Source of the DNA: Vagococcus teuberi | GTDB lineage: Bacteria > Bacillota > Bacilli > Lactobacillales > Vagococcaceae | Direction of reading: 5' to 3' | Length of the DNA: 64,000 nucleotides | Assembly: GCF_001870205.1 (NCBI RefSeq) | Contig: NZ_CP017267.1 | Location: 174,501 to 238,500, forward strand | Part shown: in pieces, positions 4,591 through 64,000 of the stretch | How positions within the stretch are numbered: position 1 is the first letter of the stretch | Layout of the letters: the number at the start of each line of letters is the position of its first letter | Made by a program: the position numbers and the translations under genes | The notes under the pieces: generated by a model | What the model saw: only the letters and a program-made list of their open reading frames with translations | What the model was told of the DNA's origin: nothing | The model's database searches: none

Positions 4591-4852
4591 ATTTGGTCAA
4601 TGAAAATTTTAAAAAATACCAATAAAATATCGTTAAAAAAATAATTAATGATTCTGACTAAAAACCTGCTTGTATTTCTATTTATTTTAAATTATAAAGC
4701 TTTTTATATAAAAAAATAGCTTGTATTCACCTTAAACTACGTTGTTTTAAATAAATCATACTAAAGTACTATATATTATTTTTTTTATTTAGTGTAAGGT
4801 CTATATATATCTTTGGTTTTATTATTTAAATCTAACTTTAAGGGGAATGTAT

Positions 4853-5605: not shown

Positions 5606-5622
5606 AAAGGAAAGAAAAAACG

Positions 5623-7431
5623 ATGATTTGGAAATTATCTATGACAGGTATAAAGAGTCGATTACGAGATTATATGATTCTCTTCTCGGGTTTAATTATT
5701 GCCTCAGCTATTTTTTACATGTTTCAAAGTCTTGCAACAAATAAAGCTTTTTTAGAAGGAAATACCAGTATCAGTATGGCAACGCTGATTTTTCAACTAG
5801 GAACTATTTTATTAACTATTATTACAATTGTATACATACTCTACGCCAATTCTTTTTTGATGACATTACGACAAAGAACGTATGCCATGCTCATGATGTT
5901 AGGTGCAAAAACTAAAAAAATTGCTCAAATAATCTTTTTAGAGACATTTATTATAGGGTTATCTGCTACATTAATCGGTATTTTATTAGGCGTGTGTCTT
6001 ACTTATGTTGTTAATTATTTTTTAATGAGTCAATTAGAAATAGTGGTTACAGGATTTTCACCATTTAACTTACTAGCTATTGTTTGGACACTTTCAATCT
6101 TTAGTATTTTATTTATCATAACATCACTTATTAATTCGAGTTCTGTTATGAGTAAACAAATTTTACAATTATTAAACGAACAATCAACTACGAAAAAATT
6201 AGTGAGACGTCCAATTCTCTCTATACTTGAAGCAATATTCGGATCTTTAAGTTTAGGTCTTGGATATTATATGTTGGATAATATTCAAACATATAAATTA
6301 TTTTCAATTGAGGTAGCACTTGTCACTATAGTAATAGGAAGTTATTGCTTGTTTCATGCGATTGCTATTGTTGTTTTGAGTTTAATGAAAAATATTGATT
6401 CCATATCAATGAAAAAACTAACAAACTTTACACTATCACAATTAACTTTTAGAATCAGGGAATACACTCAAATTTTAACAATGGTGTCTATCTTATTTGC
6501 ATTAGCGATGGGGGCTATTACCGTTGGTCTGGCATTTAGATCTCAGCCAATTAAAATAGCTAACAATAGTGAAACATATGACTTGGTATTAAATAATTCA
6601 GATAAAATAAATCAAAAACAAATAAATGATTTAGATATAAATTTTGATGCAAAATATAGTCAAAAAGAAGATTCGAATACTTTATATTATAATTCAGATG
6701 AATTTAATAAGCAGCCATTACAAGATAAAAATATAGATAGTCAAAAAATTAATGAATATACTGGAAATCAATTAAAGGAAAATCAAGATGGGATTACCAT
6801 TTTAAAAAAATATATGACACCCGACCAAAGGAATAAAGAGATAAAATTTATCTCTAATGCGGAGTTTAACATACTAAATCTACCTAAGACAAACCTAGAA
6901 CTAATCAAAGTAGTTAACTTTAAAGACAGTTTGCCACAAATCAAAAAATTAGTTTTAGAAAATAATCGTAATAACCCAAGTATGAATTCGAATAATGAAA
7001 TGGATAATGTATCACAAAAATATGAAACATATCAAACAATAAATTCTATCTCTGCTGGATTTCAATTTATGGGATTCTTTTTAGGATTAGCATTTTTAAC
7101 GATGTTAGCAAGTTGTTTAATGTTTAAAATTTTATCATCTGCTAATACTGATAAAGCACGTTTCCAAATGTTACGTAAAATAGGAACTAGACAATCACTT
7201 CTAAAAAAAGCAGTTATACAAGAAATAGGTGTTTTATTCTTTTTACCTGGAATTTTAGGTATTATCCATGTACTGTTTGGTTTACAAATGTTCAAAGAGT
7301 TTATAAGTAATCCATACGAAGGAATTTGGATACCTTTTTCTATATTTATATTTTTATATACTATTTATTATGTATTAACCGTAGTTTTATATAGCAGTAT
7401 CGTTATACCTAAAGAATTAGATGATTATTAA
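5623..7431 (+). CDS. ABC transporter permease, BceB-type (FtsX fold)
   Basis: This 602-residue permease partners the preceding ATPase. It shows the BceB plan: one N-terminal membrane segment (about 18-38), a cluster of three including an FtsX-like segment with LRQRTYAMLMMLGAKTKK, further paired helices, then a large hydrophilic domain (roughly residues 305-465, Asn/Asp/Lys rich) predicted outside the cell. A second FtsX domain follows, with the matching FQMLRKIGTRQS motif. BceB proteins are usually about 640-660 residues, so this is slightly short but looks complete. In this family the extracellular domain senses the peptide antibiotic or its lipid II-type target. The specific ligand cannot be told. 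Confidence 0.85.
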   Translation: MIWKLSMTGIKSRLRDYMILFSGLIIASAIFYMFQSLATNKAFLEGNTSISMATLIFQLGTILLTIITIVYILYANSFLMTLRQRTYAMLMMLGAKTKKIAQIIFLETFIIGLSATLIGILLGVCLTYVVNYFLMSQLEIVVTGFSPFNLLAIVWTLSIFSILFIITSLINSSSVMSKQILQLLNEQSTTKKLVRRPILSILEAIFGSLSLGLGYYMLDNIQTYKLFSIEVALVTIVIGSYCLFHAIAIVVLSLMKNIDSISMKKLTNFTLSQLTFRIREYTQILTMVSILFALAMGAITVGLAFRSQPIKIANNSETYDLVLNNSDKINQKQINDLDINFDAKYSQKEDSNTLYYNSDEFNKQPLQDKNIDSQKINEYTGNQLKENQDGITILKKYMTPDQRNKEIKFISNAEFNILNLPKTNLELIKVVNFKDSLPQIKKLVLENNRNNPSMNSNNEMDNVSQKYETYQTINSISAGFQFMGFFLGLAFLTMLASCLMFKILSSANTDKARFQMLRKIGTRQSLLKKAVIQEIGVLFFLPGILGIIHVLFGLQMFKEFISNPYEGIWIPFSIFIFLYTIYYVLTVVLYSSIVIPKELDDY

Positions 7432-7517
7432 AAAAATATAGATCAATCAAATATATTTTTTTATTAGAAAATACTACACGGTATTATGTAATATCGGTAA
7501 GAAATGGGGAGAATTCA

Positions 7518-7724
7518 ATGAATGCTAACTATGTAAATAATCCTTTAGTTATTTTAGGAGTCTTTATATTTTTAATAGGTGTTTTTCTGTTTGTTTTTGG
7601 TAGGAAGTGGTTCCTTTTTCGTTTGTTATTGGGTGACATTTCCATGATCTCTCAGATGTTTTATGGAACTATCCTATCTATCATAGGATTAATACTCTTA
7701 TATATGTCTGGAAGGTTTAATTAA
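7518..7724 (+). CDS. Small membrane protein, two transmembrane segments
   Basis: I do not recognise this 68-residue protein with confidence. It has two hydrophobic helices (about residues 9-28 and 46-64) joined by a short segment FGRKWFLFRLLLGDIS. A GGGGAG ribosome binding site stands about 8 bases before the ATG. It lies between the BceAB-type transporter and the YxeA-like gene on the same strand, so it may belong to the same resistance or envelope-stress group. The GDI motif faintly recalls DUF2905, but the similarity is too weak to name. Confidence 0.6.
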   Translation: MNANYVNNPLVILGVFIFLIGVFLFVFGRKWFLFRLLLGDISMISQMFYGTILSIIGLILLYMSGRFN

Positions 7725-7767
7725 TTTAAAAAAATATTTTATATGAATTATAAAGGAGCGATATTTT

Positions 7768-8157
7768 ATGATAAAAAAAGTTATTTTAAGTGTATTACTA
7801 GTAGTAATGGTATTTGTAGGATATAAAGGTTATAAATATTATGCTGAAACATATAAAAGTGAAGTTGCTTACGCCAAAGTTTCAGATAAAATTCCAGAAA
7901 TAAAAGACGCAACATATCAAGATGGAAGTGTAGTTGCTGGAAGCAAAACTTACAGCTATGATTTTGATTTTGTTAAAGAAGATGGAAGTGTACAAAAAAT
8001 GGAATACGATTTAACTGGAGAGAGTGATCAATTAAAACCACTAACACCTGGTTCATATGTAAAAGCTGAAATAAGTAAAAAACGTGTTACTAAAGGACCT
8101 AACGAGATATCAGAAACTAAAATTCCCAAAAATGTATTAAATAAATTACACAAATAA
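7768..8157 (+). CDS. YxeA family protein (DUF1093)
   Basis: This 129-residue protein has an N-terminal membrane anchor or signal segment (about residues 4-22) and a small beta-rich extracytoplasmic domain. The features SKTYSYDFDFVKEDGSVQKMEYDL and LKPLTPGSYVKAEISKKRV are characteristic of the YxeA family. YxeA genes commonly sit beside BceAB-type transporters in Firmicutes, as here, and are induced by cell-envelope stress. The biochemical role is not established. A good AAAGGAG ribosome binding site precedes the ATG. Confidence 0.8.
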   Translation: MIKKVILSVLLVVMVFVGYKGYKYYAETYKSEVAYAKVSDKIPEIKDATYQDGSVVAGSKTYSYDFDFVKEDGSVQKMEYDLTGESDQLKPLTPGSYVKAEISKKRVTKGPNEISETKIPKNVLNKLHK

Positions 8158-8195
8158 CAAGAGTGTTAGTTAATTTTGTTTATTTGGTAGATGAA

Positions 8196-8226
8196 AAACC
8201 TATTATTTAATCTAAATAATAGGTTT
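8196..8226. repeat. Perfect 14-bp hairpin upstream of the traX-like gene
   Basis: AAACCTATTATTTA (8196-8209) is followed by a 3-nt loop and its exact complement (8213-8226). No strong T run follows, only AAATTTG. It lies after the yxeA-like stop and before the traX-like ribosome binding site. It could be a weak terminator or an mRNA-stabilising stem. An upstream ATG at 8191 falls in this hairpin and is therefore an unlikely start. Confidence 0.6.
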
Positions 8227-8289
8227 AAATTTGTATTTACTACTAAATTTGTTATATATTACACTTATGATTTTTTAGGAGGAATTAAT

Positions 8290-9081
8290 TTGAATAATAT
8301 TTTAAAGACTAAGAGGTTATCCATTTTTGATATTAAAATTATAGGTATTATACTGATGTTTATTGATCATATACATCAAATGTTTGTACCATTTGGTATT
8401 CCAAACTGGGTAGATTGGTTTGGAAGACCAGTAGCAACTCTGTTCTTTTTTGTTAGTGTTGTTGGTTTTTCTCATACCAAAAGTAAAAAAAGATACATGC
8501 TAAGACTTTATATTTCAATGATTTTAATGTCTTTCCTTACATTCTTTTTGGAAAAAATTGTACACTATGATCAAGTGGTTTTAATAAATAATATTTTTAG
8601 AGATTTATTTATCGGAACTTTAATGATGGCGGGGATAGATTTAATCACTTCTGGAAAGAAACATAAGAATGTATTAAACATATTGTGTGGCTTTTTATTG
8701 ATTTTATTACCATTTATTTCTTCTATTCTAGTAAGTATTGCTTTATCTAACCCAACCATTTTACAAAATCCTAGTATCATGACATTCATTATGGCATTTA
8801 TGCCTGCAATATTTTTAGCTGAGAATGGTATTATGGTGTTATTGATACCGTTGTTATATATTTTTAGAAATAATCGAAACATACAAATTTTGATAATTAT
8901 AATAGCAGCGTTATTCTATTTATTTATGGGATCTATACAATGGATTATGATATTTGCTATTATACCTATTATGATGTACAACGGACAAAAAGGTAAAGGG
9001 ATGAAGTACTTCTTCTATATCTTCTATCCTGCACACATTGTTTTACTTTATCTAATATCTGCTTTTTTATATAATCATTAA
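8290..9081 (+). CDS. TraX family membrane protein
   Basis: The protein is about 263 residues from the TTG at 8290, chosen because a strong AGGAGG stands seven bases before it. An in-frame ATG at 8191 has no ribosome binding site and lies in a hairpin. TraX family hallmarks are visible: FDIKIIGIILMFIDHIHQM at the N terminus, the RPVATLFFFV segment, about eight membrane helices, and the C-terminal YFFYIFYPAHIVLLYLI. TraX of F plasmid acetylates pilin, but chromosomal homologues in Firmicutes are uncharacterised acyltransferase-like membrane proteins. It follows the BceAB/YxeA genes with no clear functional tie to them. Confidence 0.75.
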   Translation: MNNILKTKRLSIFDIKIIGIILMFIDHIHQMFVPFGIPNWVDWFGRPVATLFFFVSVVGFSHTKSKKRYMLRLYISMILMSFLTFFLEKIVHYDQVVLINNIFRDLFIGTLMMAGIDLITSGKKHKNVLNILCGFLLILLPFISSILVSIALSNPTILQNPSIMTFIMAFMPAIFLAENGIMVLLIPLLYIFRNNRNIQILIIIIAALFYLFMGSIQWIMIFAIIPIMMYNGQKGKGMKYFFYIFYPAHIVLLYLISAFLYNH

Positions 9082-53391: not shown

Positions 53392-53404
53392 TAGGAGAGT
53401 TTTG

Positions 53405-54352
53405 ATGAAAAAGAGTATCCCGATAATAAGCTTAGTATTATTAACTATTTTATCTTTATTTATTGGCGTTCAAAGCATTCCTATTCAAGATATCTTTCAG
53501 CTTAATGAGACACAATCTCTTGTGCTGTGGACAACAAGAGTACCAAGAACGATTAGTTTAGTTATTGCAGGTGCAACAATTAGTGTGTCAGGACTCATCA
53601 TGCAACATCTGACACAAAATAAATTTGTTTCACCGACAACGGCTGGAACAATGGATAGTGCAAGGCTTGGTATGCTTGTGGCTATGCTGTTTTTTCCAAG
53701 TGGCACTATTCTAGTAAAATCGTTAGTTGCCTTTATCTTTGCTTTTTTAGGTACAGTATTATTTATTCAGTTGATACGTGTGTTACCAGGTAAAAATCAA
53801 TTGATGGTGCCTCTTGTAGGGGTGATGTTTGGGAATATTGTGGGGGCGATTGTCACATTTTTTGCTTATCAATATCAATTGATTCAAAACATGACTTCTT
53901 GGTTACAGGGAAGTTTTTCCACTATTTCAAAAGGAAATTACGAGCTGATTTATGTGACGGTACCTGTATTGATAATTTGTTACCTATATGCTTATCAATT
54001 TACAATAGTAGGAATGGGAGAGGAATTTTCTATTTCTGTTGGGATGAATTATAAAATTGTTCATTTAATCGGTCTATTACTAATTTCAGTTGCTAGTAGT
54101 GTGGTGTTAGTCACGATTGGTGGACTACCATTTCTTGGTGTGATTATTCCAAATGTTGTGTCGTTGATGTTAGGTGATCATATGAAAGATACGCTTTGGA
54201 TGACGGCTGTCGCAGGTAGTATTTTTTTAGTCATAGCCGATATTTTATCTCGTGTGATTTATCCGCCATATGAGTTACCAGTTAGTTTAATCGTAGGAGC
54301 TTTAGGAAGTTTTATCTTTGTCATTTTACTTGTTAAGGGGGCAAAGAAATGA
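53405..54352 (+). CDS. yclN: Siderophore ABC transporter permease (FecCD, YclN-like)
   Basis: This is a 315-residue membrane component of an iron-siderophore importer. The FecCD hallmarks are RVPRTISLVIAGATISVSGLIMQHLTQNKFVSPTTAGT in the first third and GGLPFLGVIIPNVVSLMLGDHMK in the last. About nine or ten helices are predicted. Lengths and order of all four proteins match B. subtilis YclNOPQ, the petrobactin system, and enterococcal FatDC-type systems. The substrate is inferred from that. ATG 53405 is favoured over TTG 53402, with TTAGGAGAG before it. Confidence 0.88.
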   Translation: MKKSIPIISLVLLTILSLFIGVQSIPIQDIFQLNETQSLVLWTTRVPRTISLVIAGATISVSGLIMQHLTQNKFVSPTTAGTMDSARLGMLVAMLFFPSGTILVKSLVAFIFAFLGTVLFIQLIRVLPGKNQLMVPLVGVMFGNIVGAIVTFFAYQYQLIQNMTSWLQGSFSTISKGNYELIYVTVPVLIICYLYAYQFTIVGMGEEFSISVGMNYKIVHLIGLLLISVASSVVLVTIGGLPFLGVIIPNVVSLMLGDHMKDTLWMTAVAGSIFLVIADILSRVIYPPYELPVSLIVGALGSFIFVILLVKGAKK

Positions 54353-55305
54353 AAAATAAACAGATTTATTTTAGATTAGTAACGTTAATATTGCTCGTAT
54401 TAATCAGCATTGGATTATTCATGACATATCAAACTTATGGCAATTGGCAATTTGCTTTGACGCTTAGAGGGAAAAAACTATTAGCGTTTGTAATTGTGGG
54501 TTTGTTAACAAGTTTTTCAACGATTAGTTTTCAAACTATTACCCAAAGTCATTTTTTAACGCCAAGCATTTTAGGGTTTGATTCACTTTATGTTTTAGTT
54601 CAGACCACGTTATTCTTTTATTTTGGTCAAACACCCACTCATCCTATGATGATGTTTGGACTAAATGTTGGATTAATGGTGCTATTTAGCGTTGTACTAT
54701 TTGGTTTTTTACTTAGAAAAGAAACACAAGATTTGTTTTTATTATTGATGATAGGGATGGTTCTCGGAACATTTTTTAGAAGTGTCAGTACATTTTTACA
54801 AGTTCTGATGGATCCAAACGAATACGATAAGTTACAAGGGAAACTATTTGCGAGTTTTTCAAATGTGGATGTATCCCTTCTTTATATGGTAATACCAATT
54901 GTGCTAGGGATTATTTTATTATTTTGGATTGTGTCACCGACTTTAGATGTGTTTCATTTAGGAACATGTCAGGCGATTAACTTAGGAATTAATGTACAAC
55001 GATTTCGTTGGTTCATTTTATTTTTAATCAGTTTAAGCGTGGGACTATCGACGGCGTTAATTGGTCCGATTACATTTTTAGGATTTATTGTAGCCAACAT
55101 AACGTATCAAATATTACCTGTGTATAAGCATCGTTATTTATTTGTTTCTAGTGCTTTATTAAGTATTTTGATGCTAGTATTAGGTCAATTTTTAGTGGAA
55201 CATATATTCCACATGAATACGACATTAAGTGTCGTGATTGAATTTAGTGGTGGTGTGTACTTTATTTGGAAATTACTCTCTGAAAGGGGGAAAATACTTC
55301 AATGA
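54349..55305 (+). CDS. yclO: Siderophore ABC transporter permease (FecCD, YclO-like)
   Basis: This is the second, 318-residue permease. It has RGKKLLAFVIVGLLTSFSTISFQTITQSHFLTPSILGFDSLYVLVQ, the FecCD substrate-path region, and IGPITFLGFIVANITYQ in the C-terminal part. It overlaps the first permease by four bases (ATGA) and the ATPase start by four bases, showing tight coupling. The two permeases form the heterodimeric channel. Confidence 0.88.
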   Translation: MKNKQIYFRLVTLILLVLISIGLFMTYQTYGNWQFALTLRGKKLLAFVIVGLLTSFSTISFQTITQSHFLTPSILGFDSLYVLVQTTLFFYFGQTPTHPMMMFGLNVGLMVLFSVVLFGFLLRKETQDLFLLLMIGMVLGTFFRSVSTFLQVLMDPNEYDKLQGKLFASFSNVDVSLLYMVIPIVLGIILLFWIVSPTLDVFHLGTCQAINLGINVQRFRWFILFLISLSVGLSTALIGPITFLGFIVANITYQILPVYKHRYLFVSSALLSILMLVLGQFLVEHIFHMNTTLSVVIEFSGGVYFIWKLLSERGKILQ

Positions 55306-56060
55306 ACATCGAAAAAGTAGTTAAACAGTATGGAAGCAAAAAAGTTGTCGATACGGTGGATTATGATGTGGTTCCGCACACACTTACTGCATTTATTGGG
55401 CCAAATGGTGCCGGTAAAAGCACGCTTCTTGGTATGATGAGTCGCTTGTTAGATAAAGACCAAGGGGGAATTTATTTAGAAGGGCAGGAGGTGAAAGCTT
55501 GGAAGCAACATGAACTTGCTAAAAAATTATCAATTTTAAAGCAAGCCAATGGGGTTCAATTACGTCTAACTGTAAGGGAATTAGTTGCATTCGGTCGGTT
55601 TCCACATAGTAAGGGACGGTTAACAAAACTTGATGAAGAAAAAATCAATGAATCTCTTTCTTATCTAGGTTTAGATGATTTGGCGGAAGAAACCATTGAT
55701 ACGTTGTCAGGTGGGCAATTGCAACGTGCGTATATTGCGATGGTACTCGCTCAGGATACTGAGTACATCTTTTTAGACGAGCCTCTAAATAATTTAGATA
55801 TGAATCATGCGGTTCTGTTGATGAAGACCATTCGTCGTTTGGTGGATGAGGCAAAAAAAACAGTGGTGATTGTCTTGCACGATATAAATTTTGCTGCAAG
55901 CTACGCTGATAATATCGTCGCGATGAAGTCAGGTGAGATATTTAAAGCAGGACCTACCGATGACATCATTACCAAAGAGGTATTGGATGAATTGTATGAT
56001 ATGAACATGCGCGTATGTGAGTTAGAAGGGAAACGATTTTGTTTATATTTTAATGAATAA
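55302..56060 (+). CDS. yclP: Siderophore ABC transporter ATPase (YclP-like)
   Basis: This 252-residue ATPase powers iron-siderophore import. Walker A GPNGAGKS is at about 32-39, the signature LSGGQLQRAYIAMVLAQ near 136, Walker B YIFLDEPLNNLD near 157 and the switch His in VLHDINFA. The segment LLGMMSRLLDKDQGG after Walker A is typical of FepC/YclP. Overlap with the permease gene fixes the ATG start. Confidence 0.92.
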   Translation: MNIEKVVKQYGSKKVVDTVDYDVVPHTLTAFIGPNGAGKSTLLGMMSRLLDKDQGGIYLEGQEVKAWKQHELAKKLSILKQANGVQLRLTVRELVAFGRFPHSKGRLTKLDEEKINESLSYLGLDDLAEETIDTLSGGQLQRAYIAMVLAQDTEYIFLDEPLNNLDMNHAVLLMKTIRRLVDEAKKTVVIVLHDINFAASYADNIVAMKSGEIFKAGPTDDIITKEVLDELYDMNMRVCELEGKRFCLYFNE

Positions 56061-56078
56061 TAAAAAGGAGAAGGATAG

Positions 56079-57038
56079 ATGAAACGAGTAAAAAAATGGA
56101 GTCTAGCAAGTTTAGTTGTTGCAGGAGTTATGATGTTGGGGGCATGTGGCTCATCAAGTGCGACAAAAGACACAGAAAAATCATCAAGTGAGCCACAAGA
56201 AGCAGTGAAGGTAACTGATAGTAACGGAGAGACTGTAGAGTTAAAATCACATCCTAAAAAAGTCGTGGTATTTGATATGGGAGCTCTTGATACGATTAAA
56301 GAATTAGGTGAAGCAGATAAAGTTGTTGGTGCACCAACAAAAACTTTACCAAGTTATTTATCTAGCTTTAAAAATTTAGAATCAGCTGGTGGAATTAAAG
56401 AGCCAGATATGGAAAAAATTAATGCGATGCAACCTGATTTAATCATCATATCAGGTCGTCAAGAAGACATGAAAAAAGAGTTAGAAAACATTGCACCAAC
56501 GCTTTACTTATCAGTAGATAACAAAAAGGCATGGGAATCGACAGTAGAAAATATTGAAACATTGGGAACAGTTTTTGGTAAAGAAGATGTGGCAAAAGAA
56601 AAAGTTGATGAACTGACAACAAAACGTGAAGCATTAGAAAAAACTACCAAAGAAAGTGGTAAAAAAGGATTGATGAGCTTGGTGAATGAAGGATCATTAT
56701 CAGTATTTGGTCCAGAATCACGTTTTGGTATCATCTATGAAGGATTTGGTGTAATACCTGCAGATGAAGCAATTGAACCATCACCACATGGGCAAGAAGT
56801 ATCTTATGAGTATGTATTAGAGAAAAATCCAGATATTTTATTTGTTGTTGACCGTACCAAAGCAATTGGCGGAGATGACAGTAAAAATAATGTAGCAGAT
56901 AATGCTTTAGTAAAAGAGACGACAGCTGGTAAAGAAGGAAAAGTAATTAGTTTAACACCTGATGTATGGTACTTAGCAGGTGGAGGGATTAAAGCTACGC
57001 AAATGATGATGGAAGATGTCGAATCAGCTTATAAATAG
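56079..57038 (+). CDS. yclQ: Siderophore-binding lipoprotein (YclQ-like)
   Basis: This 319-residue substrate-binding lipoprotein is anchored outside the membrane. The signal peptide MKRVKKWSLASLVVAGVMMLGAC ends in the lipobox LGAC, and a Ser-rich linker follows. The periplasmic-binding fold of class III shows KVVVFDMGALDTIKELGEADKVVGAP, EPDMEKINAMQPDLIIISGRQ, and a C-terminal lobe with YEYVLEKNPDILFVVDR. Close agreement in length with YclQ and FatB suggests a catecholate-type or petrobactin-like ligand, but this is not shown by sequence alone. Confidence 0.9.
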   Translation: MKRVKKWSLASLVVAGVMMLGACGSSSATKDTEKSSSEPQEAVKVTDSNGETVELKSHPKKVVVFDMGALDTIKELGEADKVVGAPTKTLPSYLSSFKNLESAGGIKEPDMEKINAMQPDLIIISGRQEDMKKELENIAPTLYLSVDNKKAWESTVENIETLGTVFGKEDVAKEKVDELTTKREALEKTTKESGKKGLMSLVNEGSLSVFGPESRFGIIYEGFGVIPADEAIEPSPHGQEVSYEYVLEKNPDILFVVDRTKAIGGDDSKNNVADNALVKETTAGKEGKVISLTPDVWYLAGGGIKATQMMMEDVESAYK

Positions 57039-57049
57039 TCAGTATGTAT

Positions 57050-57076
57050 AGGGGGCATAAAGCCCTCTTTTTTTAT
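57050..57076 (+). terminator. Intrinsic terminator after the siderophore operon
   Basis: AGGGGGC (57050-57056) pairs with GCCCTCT (57062-57068) with one G-U pair, and a T run follows. Confidence 0.8.
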
Positions 57077-57101: not shown

Positions 57102-57130
57102 TTGAAATTTTATTTCGATAACTGTATAAT
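57102..57130 (+). promoter_or_regulatory. Promoter of the amino-sugar salvage operon
   Basis: TTGAAA (57102-57107) and TATAAT (57125-57130) have a 17-base spacer. The -35 is part of TGAAATTTTATTTCG, an inverted repeat with one mismatch that resembles RpiR-family operators. Confidence 0.75.
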
Positions 57131-57185
57131 AAAAATGTAATTTGATTTCAAAGTAACGAAGTTGAGTTAACTAAAATATAGTCGA

Positions 57186-57204
57186 ATTGTTTTACGAAAA
57201 CAAT
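57186..57204. promoter_or_regulatory. Perfect palindrome in the leader of the salvage operon
   Basis: ATTGTTTT and AAAACAAT flank ACG, a 19-bp perfect inverted repeat. It lies about 50 bases downstream of the -10 and 27 bases before the first start codon. It is a candidate operator, possibly for the RpiR-type regulator at 63507, or a short mRNA stem. Confidence 0.5.
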
Positions 57205-57230
57205 AGACAACATTATAGGAGGCAATAAGT

Positions 57231-57536
57231 ATGAAAGTAGTAATGGTATGTTCAGGTGGAATGTCAAGTGCAATAGTGGTTAAAGCAATTCTTAAAGAAG
57301 CAGAGAAACAAGGATTTGACTTAGATATGATTGCAGTGGGTTCAGGTGAAGTAGAAGAAACATTAAATCAAGGAGATTATGAGTTACTATTAGTTGCACC
57401 TCAAGTAAAACATCAATTTAGTCGTTATGAAGAGTTGGCAAAAGAAAAAAATATTCCAATTGAATTAGTTGCTCCTACAGGTTACACACCAATTGGTGCA
57501 CCAAAAACATTAGAACAAATAAAAAAACATAAATAG
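57231..57536 (+). CDS. PTS lactose/cellobiose-family EIIB
   Basis: This 101-residue cytoplasmic phosphocarrier has its reactive cysteine at residue 7 in MVCSGGMSSAIVV, the IIB(Lac/Cel) P-loop. Family members commonly read CAAGMSTS, so the loop is a diverged variant. APQVKHQF is the second family mark. It is the first gene of an operon that continues with EIIC, a small membrane protein, MupG, an esterase and EIIA. The sugar is inferred to be a peptidoglycan amino sugar, not cellobiose. Confidence 0.88.
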   Translation: MKVVMVCSGGMSSAIVVKAILKEAEKQGFDLDMIAVGSGEVEETLNQGDYELLLVAPQVKHQFSRYEELAKEKNIPIELVAPTGYTPIGAPKTLEQIKKHK

Positions 57537-57557
57537 GTTGAGTATAAGGAGAAGACA

Positions 57558-58856
57558 ATGGAGAAATTTTTAAATTGGGTAGAAACAAAATTTATGCCTC
57601 CAATGGCAAAATTAGCTGAACAAAGGCATTTGAAAGCTATTAGAGATGGAGTTATTTCAACATTATCGTTAATTCTTATTGGTAGTTTCTTTTTAGTTAT
57701 TGCAAATCCGCCGGTGCCATCATGGGCAGCAGCGATTGCGCCATATTCAGCACAAATTGTTGTGCCTTTCCGTATTACAATGGGACTTATGAGTATTTAT
57801 GCAGCGTATGGTATGGGGTATAGTTTAGCGAAATCATACAAGTTGGATGGTATTAGTGGTGGTGTCCTTTCTTTAGCGACATTCTTAATGTTAACGGTAC
57901 CATTAAATGTCGATCAACTACTTCCTGAAGGTCAAGGAATCGGTTGGGTTATGCCAATGGGGTACCTTGGTGGAGCTGGAATGTTCTCAGCAATTCTTGC
58001 GATGATTTTTGCTGTGGAAGTGCTGAGATTATTTAAAGAAAAGAATTTAATGATTAAAATGCCAGAACAAGTACCCGAATCTGTATCACGAAGTTTTGAA
58101 GCATTGATACCAGGTGCTGTTATTATCACAACAACATGGATTTTACGCGTTCTTTTAGGATTGGATATTAATGAGCTATTATTAGGTATTTTCTCTCCTA
58201 TTACAGAAGTTTTAGGAAATAATTTATTAGGTGTTTTATTACCGATGTTCTTAATTCACGTATTATGGGCAGCGGGTGTACATGGTATGAGTGTGATTGG
58301 GTCAATTGTTAGACCAATGTGGTTATTAATGTTAGATGCTAATGCACAAGCATTATCTGATGGCGTCTCAGCAACAAAACTACCATATATTGCACCAGAA
58401 CAATTTTATCAATGGACAGTGACGATTGGTGGGGCAGGAGCGACATTATCACTTTGTTTATTATTAATGTTTGCTACAAAATCAACGTATTTAAAAGAAG
58501 TTGGGAAATTCTCGTTTATCCCAGGGATTTTCAATATTAATGAGCCACTTATTTTTGGTGTTCCATTAATTATGAACCCAGTTTTAGCATTACCATTCAT
58601 TTGTATCCCACTCATTACAACAACAATTAGCTATTTTGCTGTGAAATTTGGATTAGTAAATGGTTTTGTATTGAATGTAACATGGACACTACCAGCACCA
58701 ATTGGGGCATTTTTATCAACAGGAAATGACTGGCGTGCGGTTGTATTGGTAGTAATTAATATTTTAATTGCACTAGCATTATATTATCCATTTGTTAAAG
58801 CATATGACAATACTTTAATTAAACAAGAACAAGAAGAGATGGCGACAGAAGGTTAA
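57558..58856 (+). CDS. PTS lactose/cellobiose-family EIIC
   Basis: This 432-residue permease has about ten helices. Family features are FMPPMAKLAEQRHLKAIRDGVISTLSLILIGSFFLVI at the N terminus, the HVLWAAGVHGMSVIGSI loop and FSFIPGIFNINEPLIFGVPLIMNP, the substrate-binding and hairpin region of CelB/ChbC proteins. Since EIIB and EIIA of the same family are encoded on either side, the three form one complete transporter. Its neighbours MupG, MurK-like kinase and AnmK suggest import of MurNAc-containing sugars as 6-phosphates. Confidence 0.88.
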   Translation: MEKFLNWVETKFMPPMAKLAEQRHLKAIRDGVISTLSLILIGSFFLVIANPPVPSWAAAIAPYSAQIVVPFRITMGLMSIYAAYGMGYSLAKSYKLDGISGGVLSLATFLMLTVPLNVDQLLPEGQGIGWVMPMGYLGGAGMFSAILAMIFAVEVLRLFKEKNLMIKMPEQVPESVSRSFEALIPGAVIITTTWILRVLLGLDINELLLGIFSPITEVLGNNLLGVLLPMFLIHVLWAAGVHGMSVIGSIVRPMWLLMLDANAQALSDGVSATKLPYIAPEQFYQWTVTIGGAGATLSLCLLLMFATKSTYLKEVGKFSFIPGIFNINEPLIFGVPLIMNPVLALPFICIPLITTTISYFAVKFGLVNGFVLNVTWTLPAPIGAFLSTGNDWRAVVLVVINILIALALYYPFVKAYDNTLIKQEQEEMATEG

Positions 58857-58870
58857 AAGGTTTGATAGTT

Positions 58871-58901
58871 AAAAGCTGATTAGTTCATCTAGTCAGCTTT
58901 T
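58871..58901 (+). terminator. Intra-operon hairpin after EIIC
   Basis: AAAAGCTGATTAG (58871-58883) pairs with 58889-58901 with one G-U pair. The following bases are GGTATT, so it may act as a weak attenuator or mRNA stabiliser. Confidence 0.5.
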
Positions 58902-58921
58902 GGTATTAAGGGAGAGAAAAG

Positions 58922-59218
58922 ATGATAAAAATGATTTATATTGTATTCGTTATAGCTTATGTATTAGCTTGTGTTGGAATCACTAGATGGTTAGATAAGA
59001 AAAATAAATTACCGAATCGATGGATTTCAGGATTTATTTCATTTTTTATTATCTTGATTCCTTTAATGATATTTTCTAATATTCCACCCTTTGTGTTGAA
59101 TATTTTATATGGGTTATGTGGTTTATTTGCCATTATGTTTTTTGAAACCTCTCGTTTGATGGTCGAAAGAGGTCAACATAGAGGAATGGTGAAACCACCC
59201 TCTACTAAAAAGAAATAG
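58922..59218 (+). CDS. Small membrane protein of unknown function
   Basis: I do not recognise this 98-residue protein. Three hydrophobic segments (about 3-21, 35-53 and 57-77) are separated by short basic loops (RWLDKKNKLPNRW). The basic C-terminal tail ends GMVKPPSTKKK. It has a GGGAGAG site and lies between the EIIC gene and mupG, 14 bases ahead of the latter. Its constant strand and spacing suggest it belongs to the amino-sugar salvage system, perhaps as an accessory of the PTS. Confidence 0.65.
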   Translation: MIKMIYIVFVIAYVLACVGITRWLDKKNKLPNRWISGFISFFIILIPLMIFSNIPPFVLNILYGLCGLFAIMFFETSRLMVERGQHRGMVKPPSTKKK

Positions 59219-59232
59219 ATAGGAGCATATTT

Positions 59233-60327
59233 ATGAGAACATTAGGTATTTCTGTTTATCCGAATCATCAATCGGTTGAAGACATTAAAGAGTATATGAA
59301 ATTAGCAGCAAAATATGGTTTTAAACGTGTATTCACTTGTTTGTTATCAGTGGATCCAGAAGAAAAGGAAAGAATCGTGAGTGATTTTTCTGAGACCATT
59401 TTTTTTGCTAAGTCACTAGGCATGAAAGTAGTGGCTGATGTTAGTCCTAAAGTATTTGGTGAGTTGGGGATTAGTTATGATAATTTAGAATTTTTTAAAG
59501 AGATTGGTGCTGATGGGATTCGTTTAGATATGGGATTTACAGGGAATGAAGAATCAATCATGACATTTAATCCTCAAAATCTAGATATTGAGTTAAACAT
59601 TAGTTCAGGAACACGTTATTTAGAAAATATTCTAAGTTATCAAGCCAATGATAATAAACTCTTAGGGTGTCATAATTTTTATCCGCATCGTTATACAGGA
59701 CTGAGCTATGATCATTTTATTGAAACAACAAAGGTTTATAAAGAAAATGGCATTAGAACAGCTGCATTTGTTAATTCGCCAACAGCAAAAACAGGTCCAT
59801 GGCCCGTGGAAGAGGGATTATGTACGTTAGAAATGCATCGGGAATGGCCAATTACGACACAAACAAAACATCTTTGGGCAACGGATTTGATTGATGATGT
59901 GATTATCGCCAATGCTTTTGCCTCAGAGGAAGAATTGAAAGCATTAAGCGAGATTAATCCTTATAAATTAACATTAGATTGTGTGATAAGAGAAGACACA
60001 CCTGCGTTAGAGAGAAAAATAATTTTAGAAGAGTTTCATTTTAATCGTGGAGATGTGTCTGATTATGTGATTCGTTCGACACAAAGTCGTGTGAAATATA
60101 AAGGACATGACTTTAAACCATTTAATACAGAAGATATGGCTAAGGGCGATATTATTATTGAAACATCTTTATATGCTCATTATGCAGGTGAACTGCAAAT
60201 TGCTCTATTACCAATGGAAAATTCAGGTAAATCAAATGTTGTAGGCTATATTACACCAAATGATAGAGTATTGTTATCATACATTCAACCTTGGCAAAAA
60301 TTTGGGTTTAACGAAGTCTCACAATGA
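59233..60327 (+). CDS. mupG: 6-phospho-N-acetylmuramidase (DUF871)
   Basis: MupG hydrolyses MurNAc-6-phosphate-GlcNAc disaccharides in the cytoplasm to MurNAc-6-phosphate and GlcNAc. The 364-residue protein has the DUF871 plan. An N-terminal TIM-barrel domain (to about 235) has LGISVYPNHQSVEDIKEYMKLAAKYGF, VVADVSPKVF, GIRLDMGF, NISSGTRYL, CHNFYPHRYTGLS and the GPWPVEEGLCTLEMHR block. A C-terminal cyclophilin-like beta domain follows (about 240-360), with GDVSDYVIRSTQSR. The Asp and Glu residues in DMGF and EEGLCTLE are in the likely active site. Its presence points to disaccharide import by the PTS encoded upstream. The stop overlaps the esterase start. Confidence 0.88.
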   Translation: MRTLGISVYPNHQSVEDIKEYMKLAAKYGFKRVFTCLLSVDPEEKERIVSDFSETIFFAKSLGMKVVADVSPKVFGELGISYDNLEFFKEIGADGIRLDMGFTGNEESIMTFNPQNLDIELNISSGTRYLENILSYQANDNKLLGCHNFYPHRYTGLSYDHFIETTKVYKENGIRTAAFVNSPTAKTGPWPVEEGLCTLEMHREWPITTQTKHLWATDLIDDVIIANAFASEEELKALSEINPYKLTLDCVIREDTPALERKIILEEFHFNRGDVSDYVIRSTQSRVKYKGHDFKPFNTEDMAKGDIIIETSLYAHYAGELQIALLPMENSGKSNVVGYITPNDRVLLSYIQPWQKFGFNEVSQ

Positions 60328-61055
60328 GTATAGTAGTAGGGGATAGTTACTCAACTGTACTAGCCAAAAATGTGACTTATTGTGGTTTTTTTCCTAATGA
60401 ATTAGGGACAGAGGTTTCAGTCATTTACTTGCTTCACGGACGAGGTGGCAATGCCAAAAGTTTTTTAAATCAGACAACAATCGAACGGTTTATTCAAGGA
60501 ACGTCTTTCATCGCTTTTTCTGTGGACGTGGGGAATTCCTATTATGCTAACTCTGATGCGTTTGGTGATGTCTTAACTTTTGTGAGTCAGGAATTTCCTA
60601 TTATGATGCAACGAATTCATCCCTTTAATATTAAAAATGAGTTTATCATTGGTATATCAATGGGTGGATACGGCGTACTCAAATTATTAGAGAAATATCC
60701 TGATAGATATAGAGGATCAGCGATGTTATCTCCACTATTAGTAATGGATACATTAGTCAACCACATTCCTCAAACTAAAAAAGAATTGGGAACTGTTTTT
60801 CAAAAAGAGGCATGGCCTAATCTAGTCCAATCAGATTTACATCATCTTGGATTAGAAACGCATCTCATTCACTGTTGTGGGAAAGATGATTTTATGATTG
60901 AGGATAGCTTGGATTTCTCTAATAAAATAGGCAGTTTTTTACCTAACTATTCTTTTTATGTGTCTGAAGGAGAACATAATTGGGATTATTGGGATGGACA
61001 GTTAAGTCAAATTATAAACGAATTTAATCAATTAATTGAAAGAAGGAACAACTAA
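60324..61055 (+). CDS. Alpha/beta-hydrolase esterase (esterase D-like)
   Basis: This 243-residue cytoplasmic esterase has an oxyanion segment VIYLLHGRGGNAKSFL and the nucleophile elbow GISMGGYGVL (Ser at about 113). The likely acid Asp is in CCGKDDFMIEDS and the catalytic His in EGEHNWDYWD near 217. There is no signal peptide. Start and stop overlap the flanking genes (ATGA with mupG, TAATG with EIIA), so it is an integral operon member. By context it may remove O-acetyl groups from MurNAc sugars derived from O-acetylated peptidoglycan. That role is my inference. Confidence 0.75.
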   Translation: MSIVVGDSYSTVLAKNVTYCGFFPNELGTEVSVIYLLHGRGGNAKSFLNQTTIERFIQGTSFIAFSVDVGNSYYANSDAFGDVLTFVSQEFPIMMQRIHPFNIKNEFIIGISMGGYGVLKLLEKYPDRYRGSAMLSPLLVMDTLVNHIPQTKKELGTVFQKEAWPNLVQSDLHHLGLETHLIHCCGKDDFMIEDSLDFSNKIGSFLPNYSFYVSEGEHNWDYWDGQLSQIINEFNQLIERRNN

Positions 61056-61369
61056 TGGAAGAACAAATTTTTAATATTATTGTACACGGTGGAAATGCTA
61101 GAGGTTTTGCTTATGAAGCACTTGAAGCATGTCGCAAGGGAGAATACGAAAAAGTAGACGAGCTATTGAAACAATCTAAAGACGAAATGGTGCTAGCGCA
61201 TAATACTCAAACGGAATTAGTTCAAAAGGATGTTCGAGGAGAAAGTGTAGAAATTAGCTTACTAATGATTCACGCACAAGACCAATTGATGACCACTATG
61301 TCAGAACAGACATTGATTGAACAAATGATTATCATGCAAAAAGAAATTAACGAGTTACGAGAGAAATAG
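61055..61369 (+). CDS. PTS lactose/cellobiose-family EIIA
   Basis: This 104-residue phosphocarrier has EEQIFNIIVHGGNARGFAYEALEACRKGEY at the N terminus. The IIA(Lac/Cel) active segment is SKDEMVLAHNTQTELVQKDVRGE and ISLLMIHAQDQLMTTM, with His near 79 as the phosphorylation site. Together with the EIIB and EIIC genes at the start of the operon it completes the transporter. A strong terminator follows. Confidence 0.85.
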   Translation: MEEQIFNIIVHGGNARGFAYEALEACRKGEYEKVDELLKQSKDEMVLAHNTQTELVQKDVRGESVEISLLMIHAQDQLMTTMSEQTLIEQMIIMQKEINELREK

Positions 61370-61376
61370 TAAGAGG

Positions 61377-61413
61377 CAAACGATTCGTCCAACACGACAA
61401 TCGTTTGTTTTTT
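61377..61413 (+). terminator. Intrinsic terminator after the PTS-mupG operon
   Basis: CAAACGATT (61377-61385) pairs perfectly with 61399-61407, and TTTTTT follows. It separates the PTS-mupG operon from the kinase genes. Confidence 0.8.
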
Positions 61414-61448
61414 CATAAATAAAATGTGAGTAGAAATTAGGTGAAATA

Positions 61449-62372
61449 ATGGAGTATATCATTGGCTTAGATTGCGGTGGAACAAAAACAGAAGCTTTTG
61501 CTTATAATGTAAAAACAGGTGAGGAAGTCGCAAGTGCGATTTCTGGTTTTGGTAATCTGGTAGTGGATTATGATTTAGGTATGAGCCACATCACGTCAAG
61601 TATAGTATCTATTTTTGAATTACTTGAAGAAAGTCATTGTAAGGGGATTGTTCTAGGTATTGCAGGAGTTGATGCAGGTGGGCTAAAAGAAAAAGTATCC
61701 AATGATTTGATGATAATACATCCAACTATTTATATTTTTAATGACGGACAATTAGCTCATTTTTCTATATTAAAAGGAAGAGATGGCATTTGTGTGACTG
61801 CTGGAACTGGCTCTGTGGTGTTAGGTTTACATCAACATAAATGGTACAGAGTTGGTGGATGGGGGCATTTATTTGGTGATGAAGGTAGTGCTTATTGGAT
61901 AGCTAAACAAGCAATAAAATTAGCGTTGAGTGACGAAGATAATAGTTTTCAGCCAAGTGATTTAACGTTTGCTATATTTAAATTTTTTGATGTAAAAGAT
62001 GTGTTTTCTTTAACTAAATACCTTTACACGTTGTCTAAAACAGATATTGCTTCACTGACAACCATTGTTGCACAGATGAACGAAGAAGGAAATCAAGAAG
62101 CCACTCTTTTATTGAAACAAGCAGGTATACAATTAGGAATAGCAGTAGAACAAATGCTCAGAAAGAGTAAGTTATCTAAAGAATCATTAGAAATTGGATT
62201 AAATGGAAGTGTCATAGAAAAAAATGCGCAAGTTTTTTCTAGTTTTCACAACTATTTAGAAGACAGTGAAATAAATGTGACTTATTGTCATAAACAGTCA
62301 TCCTGTGCTAAAGGAGCTTATTATTATTATAAAATGCGAGAGTTGGAGGGGTTACCGTGGGATATGCAATAG
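61449..62372 (+). CDS. murK: BadF/BadG-family amino-sugar kinase (MurK/NagK-like)
   Basis: This 307-residue ASKHA-fold kinase probably phosphorylates GlcNAc and/or MurNAc freed inside the cell. Phosphate-1 loop GLDCGGTKTEAFA is at 6-18. IFNDGQLAHF carries the catalytic Asp, VTAGTGSVVLG is the adenosine/phosphate-2 region and GGWGHLFGDEGSAYWI is the family mark shared with MurK and human NAGK. GlcNAc released by MupG is the most direct substrate. MurNAc kinase activity is also possible. The gene overlaps anmK by 16 bases. Confidence 0.8.
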   Translation: MEYIIGLDCGGTKTEAFAYNVKTGEEVASAISGFGNLVVDYDLGMSHITSSIVSIFELLEESHCKGIVLGIAGVDAGGLKEKVSNDLMIIHPTIYIFNDGQLAHFSILKGRDGICVTAGTGSVVLGLHQHKWYRVGGWGHLFGDEGSAYWIAKQAIKLALSDEDNSFQPSDLTFAIFKFFDVKDVFSLTKYLYTLSKTDIASLTTIVAQMNEEGNQEATLLLKQAGIQLGIAVEQMLRKSKLSKESLEIGLNGSVIEKNAQVFSSFHNYLEDSEINVTYCHKQSSCAKGAYYYYKMRELEGLPWDMQ

Positions 62373-63478
62373 GATTGATGTCAGGCACATCACTGGACGG
62401 TGTAGATGTAGCACTGGTTAAGTATGATGAAGGCATGTCTAGTTATGAGTTAGAGGATTTTTTTACCGTTCCTTTTTCTGATGAGTTAAAGAAAAAAGTC
62501 ACAGATGCTATTGATATAAATCAATCAAATGTTGCCTTAATTTGCAGCTTAAATATCGAGTTAGGTTATTTTTTTGGTGAAGCAGTTAAAAAAATGATAG
62601 AAAAACATCAAAGGTTAGGTAAAAAAATAGACTTTGTTGCGTCTCACGGGCAAACTTTATACCATCAACCTATTTCAGAAGATAATTTAATCGCATCCAC
62701 CTTGCAAGTAGGAGAGTCAAGTGTGATTGCTGAGGTGACTGGAGTTAAAGTGGTATCTGATTTTAGATACCGGGACATGGCTGTTGGCGGACAAGGGGCA
62801 CCGATTGTTCCTTACTCAGAATTTATTTTGTATAACGACAGAGAAAAACAGCGAATTTTACAAAATATTGGCGGTATTTCAAACGCCACAATTATTCCGA
62901 AAAATGCTACAATACAGGAGATAACAGCTTTTGATACAGGGCCAGGTAATATGATAATTGATGAATTAGTGCGCCATTTTTATCAGGAAGAGTATGATGA
63001 TAATGGCCAATATGCTAAGCAAGGTCGTGTGTCAGAAACAGTTTTAGAACACATGATGTCACATTCCTTTTTTAGTCGCCCTATGCCACGGACAACAGGA
63101 AGAGAAGATTTTGGACAGCACTATGTCACCGCATTGCTTGATACGTATGAATTACCAGCTAATGATTGGATTACAACAGCAACAAAATTTACTGCAAAAG
63201 CGATTGCGTTATCATTGGCCTCGTTTTTCGTAAACGATACTGACTTAATCATTGGTGGGGGTGGAAGCTATAATCCAACGTTACTTTCAATGATTCAAGA
63301 AGAAGTGCCGTCTTTTGTGTCAGTTAAAACACAAGAAGATTTAGGCCAATCATCAGAAGCAAAAGAAGCTGTTGCTATGGTTGTGTTGGGACATCGAACG
63401 CTTATAGGCAAAACAAGTAACGTGCCAAGTGCTACTGGTGCGACTAAAGAAGTTATTTTGGGGAAAATAACATGGTAG
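62357..63478 (+). CDS. anmK: Anhydro-N-acetylmuramic acid kinase
   Basis: AnmK cleaves and phosphorylates 1,6-anhydro-MurNAc to MurNAc-6-phosphate. The 373-residue protein has AIGLMSGTSLDGVDVALV at the N terminus, FVASHGQTLYHQP, SDFRYRDMAVGGQGAPIVP with the catalytic Asp region, ILQNIGGISN, AFDTGPGNMIID and DLIIGGGGSYN, all family marks. The start is GTG 62357 behind GGAGGGG and inside the end of the kinase gene. In Gram-positives anhydro-MurNAc comes from lytic transglycosylases, phage enzymes or other bacteria, so it may serve scavenging. Confidence 0.93.
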   Translation: MGYAIGLMSGTSLDGVDVALVKYDEGMSSYELEDFFTVPFSDELKKKVTDAIDINQSNVALICSLNIELGYFFGEAVKKMIEKHQRLGKKIDFVASHGQTLYHQPISEDNLIASTLQVGESSVIAEVTGVKVVSDFRYRDMAVGGQGAPIVPYSEFILYNDREKQRILQNIGGISNATIIPKNATIQEITAFDTGPGNMIIDELVRHFYQEEYDDNGQYAKQGRVSETVLEHMMSHSFFSRPMPRTTGREDFGQHYVTALLDTYELPANDWITTATKFTAKAIALSLASFFVNDTDLIIGGGGSYNPTLLSMIQEEVPSFVSVKTQEDLGQSSEAKEAVAMVVLGHRTLIGKTSNVPSATGATKEVILGKITW

Positions 63479-63506
63479 GCAAATAAGTTAAAAGGGAAGG
63501 GTAAAT

Positions 63507-64000
63507 ATGAAAAGTAAACATATTCATCAAAGGGTGGAGAGTCTTTATAATGATTTAACACATTCGGAACAAAAAATAGCCAATTTGGTATTAGAAAGAC
63601 CGGAAGATGTGATGAAAATGACTGCAAGTGAGTTAGCAAAAGAGTCACAAACTAGTCCAGCTTCAGTCATTCGTTTTTGTAAATCAATAAATATTCCGAG
63701 TTTTCCAGAATTAAAAATAGCATTATCAGCTGAAAGACAGTGGGATGTTCCCAAAGAGTATTCAGACATATTACCAAATGAGAAAATATCGGATGTGAAA
63801 GCAAAACTTTTAGGCAATGCTTATCAATCTATGCAAGAAACGATTCAATTAGTTAGTGAAGATGTGTTAGATGATGCGGTACAGATGATTTCTTCAGCGC
63901 CATTTGTCTATGTTTACGGGATAGGCTCATCTTACCTTGTCGCAGAAAATATTGCTCAAAAGTGGAATCGAATTGGGAAAGTTTGTATCTGTATTGCAGA
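63507..64000 (+). CDS. murR: MurR/RpiR family regulator (3' end outside window)
   Basis: From ATG 63507, with AAGGGAAGGG upstream, the frame is open to the window edge (164 codons). The N-terminal RpiR HTH (about residues 1-75) has SEQKIANLVLERPEDVMKMTASELAKESQTSPASVIRFCKSI. A SIS domain that binds a phosphosugar starts near 110, with VYVYGIGSSYLVAENIAQKWNRIGK. In MurNAc loci the regulator senses MurNAc-6-phosphate, which suits its position behind anmK. A MurQ etherase would be expected beyond the window. Confidence 0.85.
   Translation, partial: MKSKHIHQRVESLYNDLTHSEQKIANLVLERPEDVMKMTASELAKESQTSPASVIRFCKSINIPSFPELKIALSAERQWDVPKEYSDILPNEKISDVKAKLLGNAYQSMQETIQLVSEDVLDDAVQMISSAPFVYVYGIGSSYLVAENIAQKWNRIGKVCICIA

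Follow-up and report, generated by a model that had tools for sequence, protein, structure and literature searches.

A probable peptidoglycan sugar salvage operon of Vagococcus teuberi that combines a lactose/cellobiose-type phosphotransferase system with a GH170 glycosidase and AnmK

Salvage of peptidoglycan disaccharides through a phosphotransferase system (PTS) has been described in Staphylococcus aureus, whose turnover product is N-acetylmuramic acid-N-acetylglucosamine (MurNAc-GlcNAc), not GlcNAc-MurNAc (Kluj 2018, PMC6262408). In the available parts of that description, the operon consists of mupG, murQ, murP, and murR only and makes MurNAc 6-phosphate (MurNAc-6P) directly, and remote relatives of MupG are supposed to have other functions (PMC6262408). 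Normal growth on N,N'-diacetylchitobiose, a sugar with GlcNAc at both ends, requires the ChbE protein of the L. paracasei chb operon (PMC12791066). In C. difficile, a murQ and an anmK gene carry near locus tags, J5O10_15565 and J5O10_15590 (PMC11633334). Here we investigate a nine-gene locus of Vagococcus teuberi that joins a PTS of the lactose/cellobiose type to a glycosidase of family GH170 and the anhydro-MurNAc kinase AnmK. It lies at the end of a stretch of 64,000 nucleotides of contig NZ_CP017267.1 (positions 174,501 to 238,500, forward strand), which as a whole is called the window.

The MurP/MupG route does not explain why some Gram-positive bacteria keep AnmK, or how they could recover muramidase and lytic-transglycosylase fragments; the operon type found here offers a testable answer. 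We have high confidence that the locus serves peptidoglycan sugar salvage in general, because murQ, AnmK, and a shared operator-like palindrome link it to muramic sugars. At slightly better than even, we favor the view that the operon salvages, through its PTS, peptidoglycan disaccharides whose non-reducing sugar is GlcNAc, and that the GH170 enzyme would release GlcNAc-6P from them. The operon is a real variant of PTS-coupled disaccharide salvage for which no description was found in the literature searched. In these searches, made mostly outside subscription journals, we recognized no account of a lactose/cellobiose-type PTS together with GH170 and AnmK, and came across no experimental work on operons of this type.

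Gene content of the locus

Nine open reading frames, all on the forward strand, occupy window positions 57231-64000 in the order IIB, IIC, small membrane protein, GH170 glycosidase, esterase, IIA, BadF kinase, AnmK, and RpiR regulator. The same genes and order had been named in a sequence-only reading of the window, and Pfam agrees. IIB (57231..57536), IIC (57558..58856), and IIA (61055..61369) are assigned to the lactose/cellobiose family by Pfam (PTS_IIB, PTS_EIIC, PTS_IIA) and NCBIfam, with IIC scoring 387.7 bits against a cut-off of 236 for TIGR00410, the lactose/cellobiose IIC subfamily. MurP, a glucose-superfamily IIBC protein, is not present at the locus, where the IIC comes with separate IIA and IIB. 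By sequence the sole solved relative of this IIC is 3qnq, named as a cellobiose-specific IIC, which we take to be the B. cereus diacetylchitobiose protein cited in section 15 of PMC12791066.

The glycosidase (59233..60327) carries the Pfam domains MupG_N (E 1.7e-98) and MupG_C (E 1.8e-36) and is the one GH170 protein of this genome. Its gene overlaps that of the esterase (60324..61055) by 4 nt (ATGA), and the esterase gene overlaps IIA by 1 nt (TAATG). Both overlaps had been noted before and are real; a third, of 16 nt, joins BadF to AnmK. The BadF kinase (61449..62372; Pfam BcrAD_BadFG, NCBIfam) is a proposed MurNAc/GlcNAc kinase. Among solved structures it matches hexokinase 2e2n first (E 8.1e-30) and the MurNAc/GlcNAc kinase 8zo3 next (E 2.9e-25), and it scores 86.2 with the NagK equivalog, below the cut-off of 370. 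AnmK (62357..63478, GTG start) is recognized by Pfam and by the NCBIfam equivalog NF007142 (481.6 against a cut-off of 435). The last gene encodes an RpiR-family, MurR-like regulator of 288 aa; it begins at 63507 and extends beyond the window end at 64000 (complete frame at L002:7008-7874; here and below, G and L numbers are our designations for genomes and loci).

The small membrane protein, TM98 (98 aa; 58922..59218), matched no Pfam family above its cut-off. It has three predicted helices (predicted local distance difference test score, pLDDT, 87.6), and Pro47, Phe74, and Arg78 are invariant in 20/20 aligned sequences. A search gave 44 matches, 37 of them unique, and in 37/37 the nearest recognized upstream gene was IIC or IIA. 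Conservation of this neighborhood had been predicted for both the small protein and the esterase; the prediction holds for the former and fails for the latter, which is found here in four genomes only. In other AnmK operons a second protein, TM101, holds a place like that of TM98 (46 matches, 41 unique; upstream neighbor IIC in 25, IIA in 7, AnmK in 1, none or other in 8). Treating TM98 and TM101 as one family was rejected, given no significant BLASTP match, no common profile matches, and an hhalign probability of 20.5. TM98 may be a PTS accessory, and the operon type ties small membrane proteins without known function to a PTS.

A widespread operon type and the two sides of GH170

The locus belongs to a widespread operon type. 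GH170 is present in 27 of the 29 genomes of the window's family, the Vagococcaceae, where the surroundings of each match were taken mostly as 15 kb and one match at a contig end (G001:C423) was left out. A locus was termed window-type if its GH170 scored at least 600 bits with the window protein, the window's own locus included, and MupG-side if it scored below 200 bits. All nine window-type loci have AnmK, BadF, and IIC within 7 kb, and six have murQ. AnmK lies within 7 kb of GH170 at 9/9 window-type loci, 1/18 MupG-side loci, and 0/34 others, and at the lone MupG-side locus it belongs to a neighboring window-type operon. Fisher tests of window-type against MupG-side and other loci give 2e-6 and 2e-9, for related genomes that are not independent. 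Among the nine, only G011 repeats the arrangement of the window, including esterase, IIA, and IIB. The other seven have a divergent IIC with a TM101 protein near, and murQ in six.

When named genomes were scanned with an alignment of nine GH170 sequences, 328 relatives were found, and the best 80 of them were analyzed for neighbors within 8.5 kb. Among these, the 17 loci scoring at least 600 bits have IIC (17), RpiR (16), AnmK (15), BadF (11), MurQ (10), TM98 (10), TM101 (5), and the esterase (2). The 13 loci at 525-600 bits have IIC (12), TM98 (10), BadF (10), AnmK (5), and MurQ (5), and the 50 lower-scoring loci have IIC (35), BadF (33), TM101 (16), AnmK (11), MurQ (7), and TM98 (1). For example, a Carnobacterium sp. 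(L157) has the order murQ-IIB-IIC-TM98-BadF-GH170-IIA-anmK-rpiR. A Caloramator locus (L173) has IIB-IIC-IIA-TM98-(sigma-54/PRD regulator)-BadF-anmK-GH170-murQ, followed by nagA-like and nagB-like genes. Orthologous operons of Vagococcus, Enterococcus, Carnobacteriaceae, and Clostridium contain murQ.

Counting from AnmK gives a similar view. AnmK is above the cut-off in 57 of the 295 genomes of the order, with the weak matches of G155 and G161 falling below it and left out. Neighbors were phmmer matches at E <= 1e-3 to window-derived queries, together with our own profiles; since L238 spans just 4.1 kb and several loci run up to a contig end, absences are upper bounds. Within 7 kb of the 57 AnmK genes there is a GH170 from outside the MupG side at 47, IIC at 53 (51 above 300 bits), TM98 or TM101 at 47, and MurQ at 22. 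With murQ inside orthologous operons and IIC this often beside AnmK, the earlier proposal of peptidoglycan salvage through a lactose/cellobiose-type PTS is upheld. In G089 (L258), BadF and AnmK are naturally fused in one protein of 680 aa. A GH1 6-phospho-beta-glucosidase-like gene lies in or beside the AnmK-type operons at L047, L289, L294, and L335, and is the sole recognized glycosidase at L335.

To which side of its family does the window GH170 belong? Both trees made, a quick one of 58 rows without bootstrap and with several long branches and a slower one of 65 rows whose bootstrap was not fully settled, have a very deep split. One side holds the proteins encoded beside murQ and a glucose-type PTS, plus 2p0o of E. 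faecalis; this MupG clade was recognized by its gene neighbors, S. aureus MupG itself being outside the compared set. The glucose-type IIBC was identified by Pfam at L046 and L294 and by eye at L136, L138, L144, and L267, and MurQ lies within 7 kb of 16/18 MupG-side loci of the window's family. On the other side are the window protein, 1x7f, and the ChbE-like proteins of G221, whose gene order (L326) fits the L. paracasei chb operon. The window GH170 is 43.8% identical to the ChbE-like protein of L326, 50.4% to 1x7f, and 27.9% to 2p0o, against 25.4-27.4% to four proteins of the MurP-linked clade and 21.6% and 30.1% to two remoter MupG-side rows. It is not in the MurP/MurQ-linked clade in the 58-row tree or by its identities to these four members. 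The name MupG, given to it in the sequence-only reading, is therefore doubtful and probably wrong, and not every GH170/DUF871 protein should be annotated as MupG.

A further GH170 of the 1x7f side, at L057 (G025, about 3402-8492), has by eye an amidohydrolase, a pyridoxal phosphate-type enzyme, and aldolase-like and sugar-kinase-like proteins for neighbors, perhaps a glucosaminate-type pathway. Given this gene company, GH170 probably has further substrates.

In G022 (L046), G074 (L267), and G156 (L294), an operon of murQ, a glucose-type PTS, and mupG stands directly beside an AnmK-type operon. That the two kinds adjoin suggests that they handle different substrates. In all three loci each operon has its own murQ; in L267 and L294 the edge of the locus truncates one copy.

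These observations bear on the idea that the PTS simply replaces MurP, with MurNAc-GlcNAc imported as in S. aureus. The GH170 would then be a 6-phospho-N-acetylmuramidase yielding MurNAc-6P and GlcNAc, BadF would be a GlcNAc kinase, and AnmK would serve another source of anhydroMurNAc. The MupG domains of the GH170, the linkage of murQ and RpiR, and the GH73 domains encoded in this genome are in its favor, as is the published remark that GlcNAc released by MupG would call for a kinase or for re-import (PMC6262408). However, the GH170 sits on the ChbE-like side away from the MurP-linked clade, AnmK accompanies window-type and hardly ever MupG-side loci (9/9 against 1/18), and both kinds of operon adjoin in the three genomes above. 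In addition, an esterase for MurNAc would make little sense, as a 6-O-acetyl-MurNAc end could not be phosphorylated at C6. We consider this explanation unlikely, and simple replacement of MurP for the same disaccharide is not supported by the data.

Operator-like palindromes and a distant murQ

V. teuberi has no murQ at the locus; the gene stands alone at G000:C1:1820976, 1.58 Mb away (390.5 bits against a cut-off of 302). The operon has a strong sigma-70-like promoter, TTGAAA-17-TATAAT (11/12), at 57102..57130, with an operator-like palindrome, TTGAAATTTTATTTCGA, over its -35 box (57102-57118), likely an RpiR operator. The murQ promoter is likewise TTGAAA-17-TATAAT, with the palindrome TTGAAATTATATTTCAA at the equal place over the -35. 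The pattern common to both is TTGAAATNNNATTTCRA, with the same -35/17/-10 spacing. This pattern was derived from sites within the set of 55 upstream regions of related operons in which it was then counted. Nor are the counts independent, because some of these regions flank the same divergent promoter or belong to close relatives. With at most one mismatch it occurs in 16/55 regions, against a mean of 0.12 and a largest value of 1 in 60 shuffles; with at most two, in 26/55, against a mean of 1.45 and a largest value of 5.

Genome-wide, at most one mismatch gives 7+7 sites, hardly more than the 5+6 of a reversed control pattern, and at most two mismatches inside the window alone gives a chance-level count. 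With these counts near control, the case for an operator rests on position and on the 16/55 upstream enrichment. We infer that the palindrome is the operator of the MurR-like RpiR protein and ties murQ to the operon. A third exact match in this genome (G000:C1:1449147) lies within an open frame, is probably due to chance, and was set aside. Elsewhere in the genome, at L034 (G000:C1:1539386), a ManNAc-6P epimerase-like gene was seen by eye to be divergent from another RpiR regulator.

Other signals accompany the genes. Between promoter and IIB there is a second palindrome, ATTGTTTTACGAAAACAAT (57186..57204), perfect at 8+8 and present also in G011; no match within 4 mismatches was found upstream of the operons at seven other loci or of the V. 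teuberi murQ. A hairpin lies between IIC and the TM98 gene (58871..58901, z -5.05). The 79-nt gap between IIA and BadF contains an intrinsic-terminator-like hairpin with a T run (about 61371..61415; z -5.07, 0/200 shuffles); it is identical in the nearest relative, G011, and is a probable read-through point. Because of this hairpin, BadF, AnmK, and RpiR may form a second, partly coupled transcription unit reached by read-through. The left border of the locus is the predicted intrinsic terminator of the upstream operon (57050..57068; fold z -2.92, 2/200 shuffles as good). That operon, at 53402-57038, is by eye an ATP-binding cassette transporter of the iron-siderophore type, with two permeases, an ATPase, and a binding lipoprotein.

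Substrate, esterase, and relation to described systems

Neither 1,6-anhydroMurNAc nor 6-O-acetyl-MurNAc has a free C6 hydroxyl. In disaccharides that contain them a PTS could therefore phosphorylate only the GlcNAc, which points to a polarity of GlcNAc-(anh)MurNAc, opposite to that in S. aureus. Such a polarity would account jointly for AnmK, a MurNAc kinase, and an O-acetyl esterase.

On the favored reading, with GlcNAc at the non-reducing end, the substrates would be GlcNAc-MurNAc, a muramidase product, and GlcNAc-1,6-anhydroMurNAc, the end made by lytic transglycosylases. IIA, IIB, and IIC, perhaps with TM98, would import the disaccharide and phosphorylate C6 of its GlcNAc. The GH170, as a proposed 6-phospho-beta-N-acetylglucosaminidase for GlcNAc6P-(anh)MurNAc, would split the product into GlcNAc-6P and MurNAc or anhydroMurNAc. 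AnmK would convert anhydroMurNAc to MurNAc-6P and the BadF kinase would phosphorylate free MurNAc, after which MurQ, from a distant gene that apparently shares the operator, would yield GlcNAc-6P and D-lactate. RpiR would repress both units, the operon and murQ. Likely fragment producers in the genome are MltG and two GH25 matches, and there is an OatA-like acyltransferase, its C-terminal SGNH part identified by eye only.

The esterase (Pfam Esterase, EstA-like), a proposed sugar O-deacetylase, has a GxSxGG nucleophile motif and an invariant Ser112/Asp189/His218 triad, and no signal peptide was seen by eye. It had been proposed to deacetylate O-acetylated MurNAc sugars. This idea needs change, because a 6-O-acetyl group on MurNAc at the non-reducing end would occupy the C6 position needed for phosphorylation by the PTS; the role would be workable only if GlcNAc bears the phosphate. 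The enzyme could then, in the small number of genomes that have it, strip the 6-O-acetyl group from MurNAc and so enable the BadF kinase to act. The esterase is not a conserved part of the operon.

Alternatively, the esterase might be a broad EstA-type hydrolase carried along, or act on another acyl group, which is compatible with every substrate model and which we rate somewhat below an even chance. Both its fold and its sequence place it with the general EstA/S-formylglutathione hydrolases, it fills this slot in so few genomes, and EstA-like relatives occur by eye in other settings, such as next to glycosidase-like genes and a LacI-type regulator (L127, L136, L138). Against this, it directly follows GH170 in the two Vagococcus and the two Enterococcus genomes despite an identity of only 33-34% between these pairs, and in a tree with very long branches the four are set apart from 19 further EstA-like proteins (Shimodaira-Hasegawa-like approximate likelihood ratio test, SH-aLRT, 97). 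Relatives on plasmids (23 records) are all less than 60% identical, the best of the eight listed at 28.9%. Three loci (L136, L138, and L144) have an EstA-like gene at a distance of 1.8-2.8 kb from a mupG-murQ-IIBC operon of the known kind; an opposite-strand gene intervenes and these cases were not counted.

Several points weigh against a substrate with GlcNAc at the non-reducing end. The genome has five GH73 glucosaminidase domain matches, which would make MurNAc-GlcNAc, and a domain search of it found no SLT-type lytic transglycosylases. We know of no GH170 activity on GlcNAc6P-MurNAc. The evidence on ChbE is genetic, and the ChbE-like label of L326 derives from the fit of its gene order to the published chb operon. 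BadF does not settle the polarity, since the MurK-type kinase 8zo3 is named for MurNAc as well as GlcNAc; AnmK could use anhydroMurNAc from another route. BadF is near only 28/57 AnmK genes within 7 kb, and the esterase occupies its slot in four genomes only (V. teuberi, G011, Enterococcus sp. 5H = G213, and Enterococcus sp. PF1-24). Additionally, 10/57 AnmK loci lack a GH170 of this side. Six of these (L268, L270, L272, L276, L292, L335) keep IIC with AnmK, and L335 has IIC, TM98, BadF, AnmK, MurQ, and GH1. L274 has a MupG-side GH170 5 kb from AnmK, L281 has NamZ and GH3, and L286 and L287 have no recognized neighbors.

Could the operon serve GlcNAc disaccharides broadly? The PTS and GH170 might take chitobiose, GlcNAc-MurNAc, and GlcNAc-anhydroMurNAc alike, the muramic branch being one of several uses, as the ChbE-side GH170 and the presumed diacetylchitobiose protein 3qnq, sole solved relative of the IIC, would fit. 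But murQ, AnmK, and the murQ operator tie the operon to muramic sugars, and a search for PF11687 (DUF3284, ChbD) found no match in this genome. We consider this quite unlikely. An operon for chitobiose only was set aside as the principal explanation, given murQ, AnmK, and the shared operator.

More widely, the favored GlcNAc-first route may be an undescribed Firmicutes PTS pathway for C6-blocked (1,6-anhydro or 6-O-acetyl) muramyl sugars, taken up as GlcNAc disaccharides with the GlcNAc phosphorylated. Its parts would be 6-phospho-N-acetylglucosaminidases that form a GH170 clade and act on GlcNAc6P-(anh)MurNAc, two families of small membrane proteins alongside the PTS, and optional wall-modification enzymes. 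These would be the O-acetyl esterase in Vagococcus and Enterococcus, and in Carnobacteriaceae an Eis-like GNAT acetyltransferase that could restore de-N-acetylated sugars. We offer this tentatively, at a little under an even chance.

Among described systems, the Gram-negative NagZ/AmpG/AnmK/MurQ recycling pathway also uses AnmK and MurQ to convert anhydroMurNAc to GlcNAc-6P, as far as the available text goes (PMC5061867); entry in V. teuberi would instead be through the PTS as a peptide-free phosphorylated disaccharide, cut by GH170 rather than NagZ. Within the same bacterial family, the G024 cluster (L281, 3286-9533) shares AnmK, RpiR, and MurQ, but has NamZ and a GH3 in place of the PTS and GH170, and by eye a GNAT, another recycling design. 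The L. paracasei chb operon, in the accessible description, likewise has a cellobiose-type PTS with a GH170, ChbE, of the same family side (PMC12791066); the Vagococcus locus lacks the DUF3284 protein, has RpiR as its regulator, and adds AnmK, the kinase, and the murQ linkage. With the S. aureus mupG-murQ-murP-murR system, as described in the parts available, it has in common PTS disaccharide import, a cytoplasmic GH170 6-phosphoglycosidase, MurQ, and an RpiR-family regulator (PMC6262408). In contrast to that system, the Vagococcus locus has lactose/cellobiose-type IIA, IIB, and IIC, AnmK, a BadF kinase, a small membrane protein, and an esterase, its GH170 is about 25-28% identical to the MurP-linked clade, its murQ is unlinked, and the polarity of its substrate is probably opposite.

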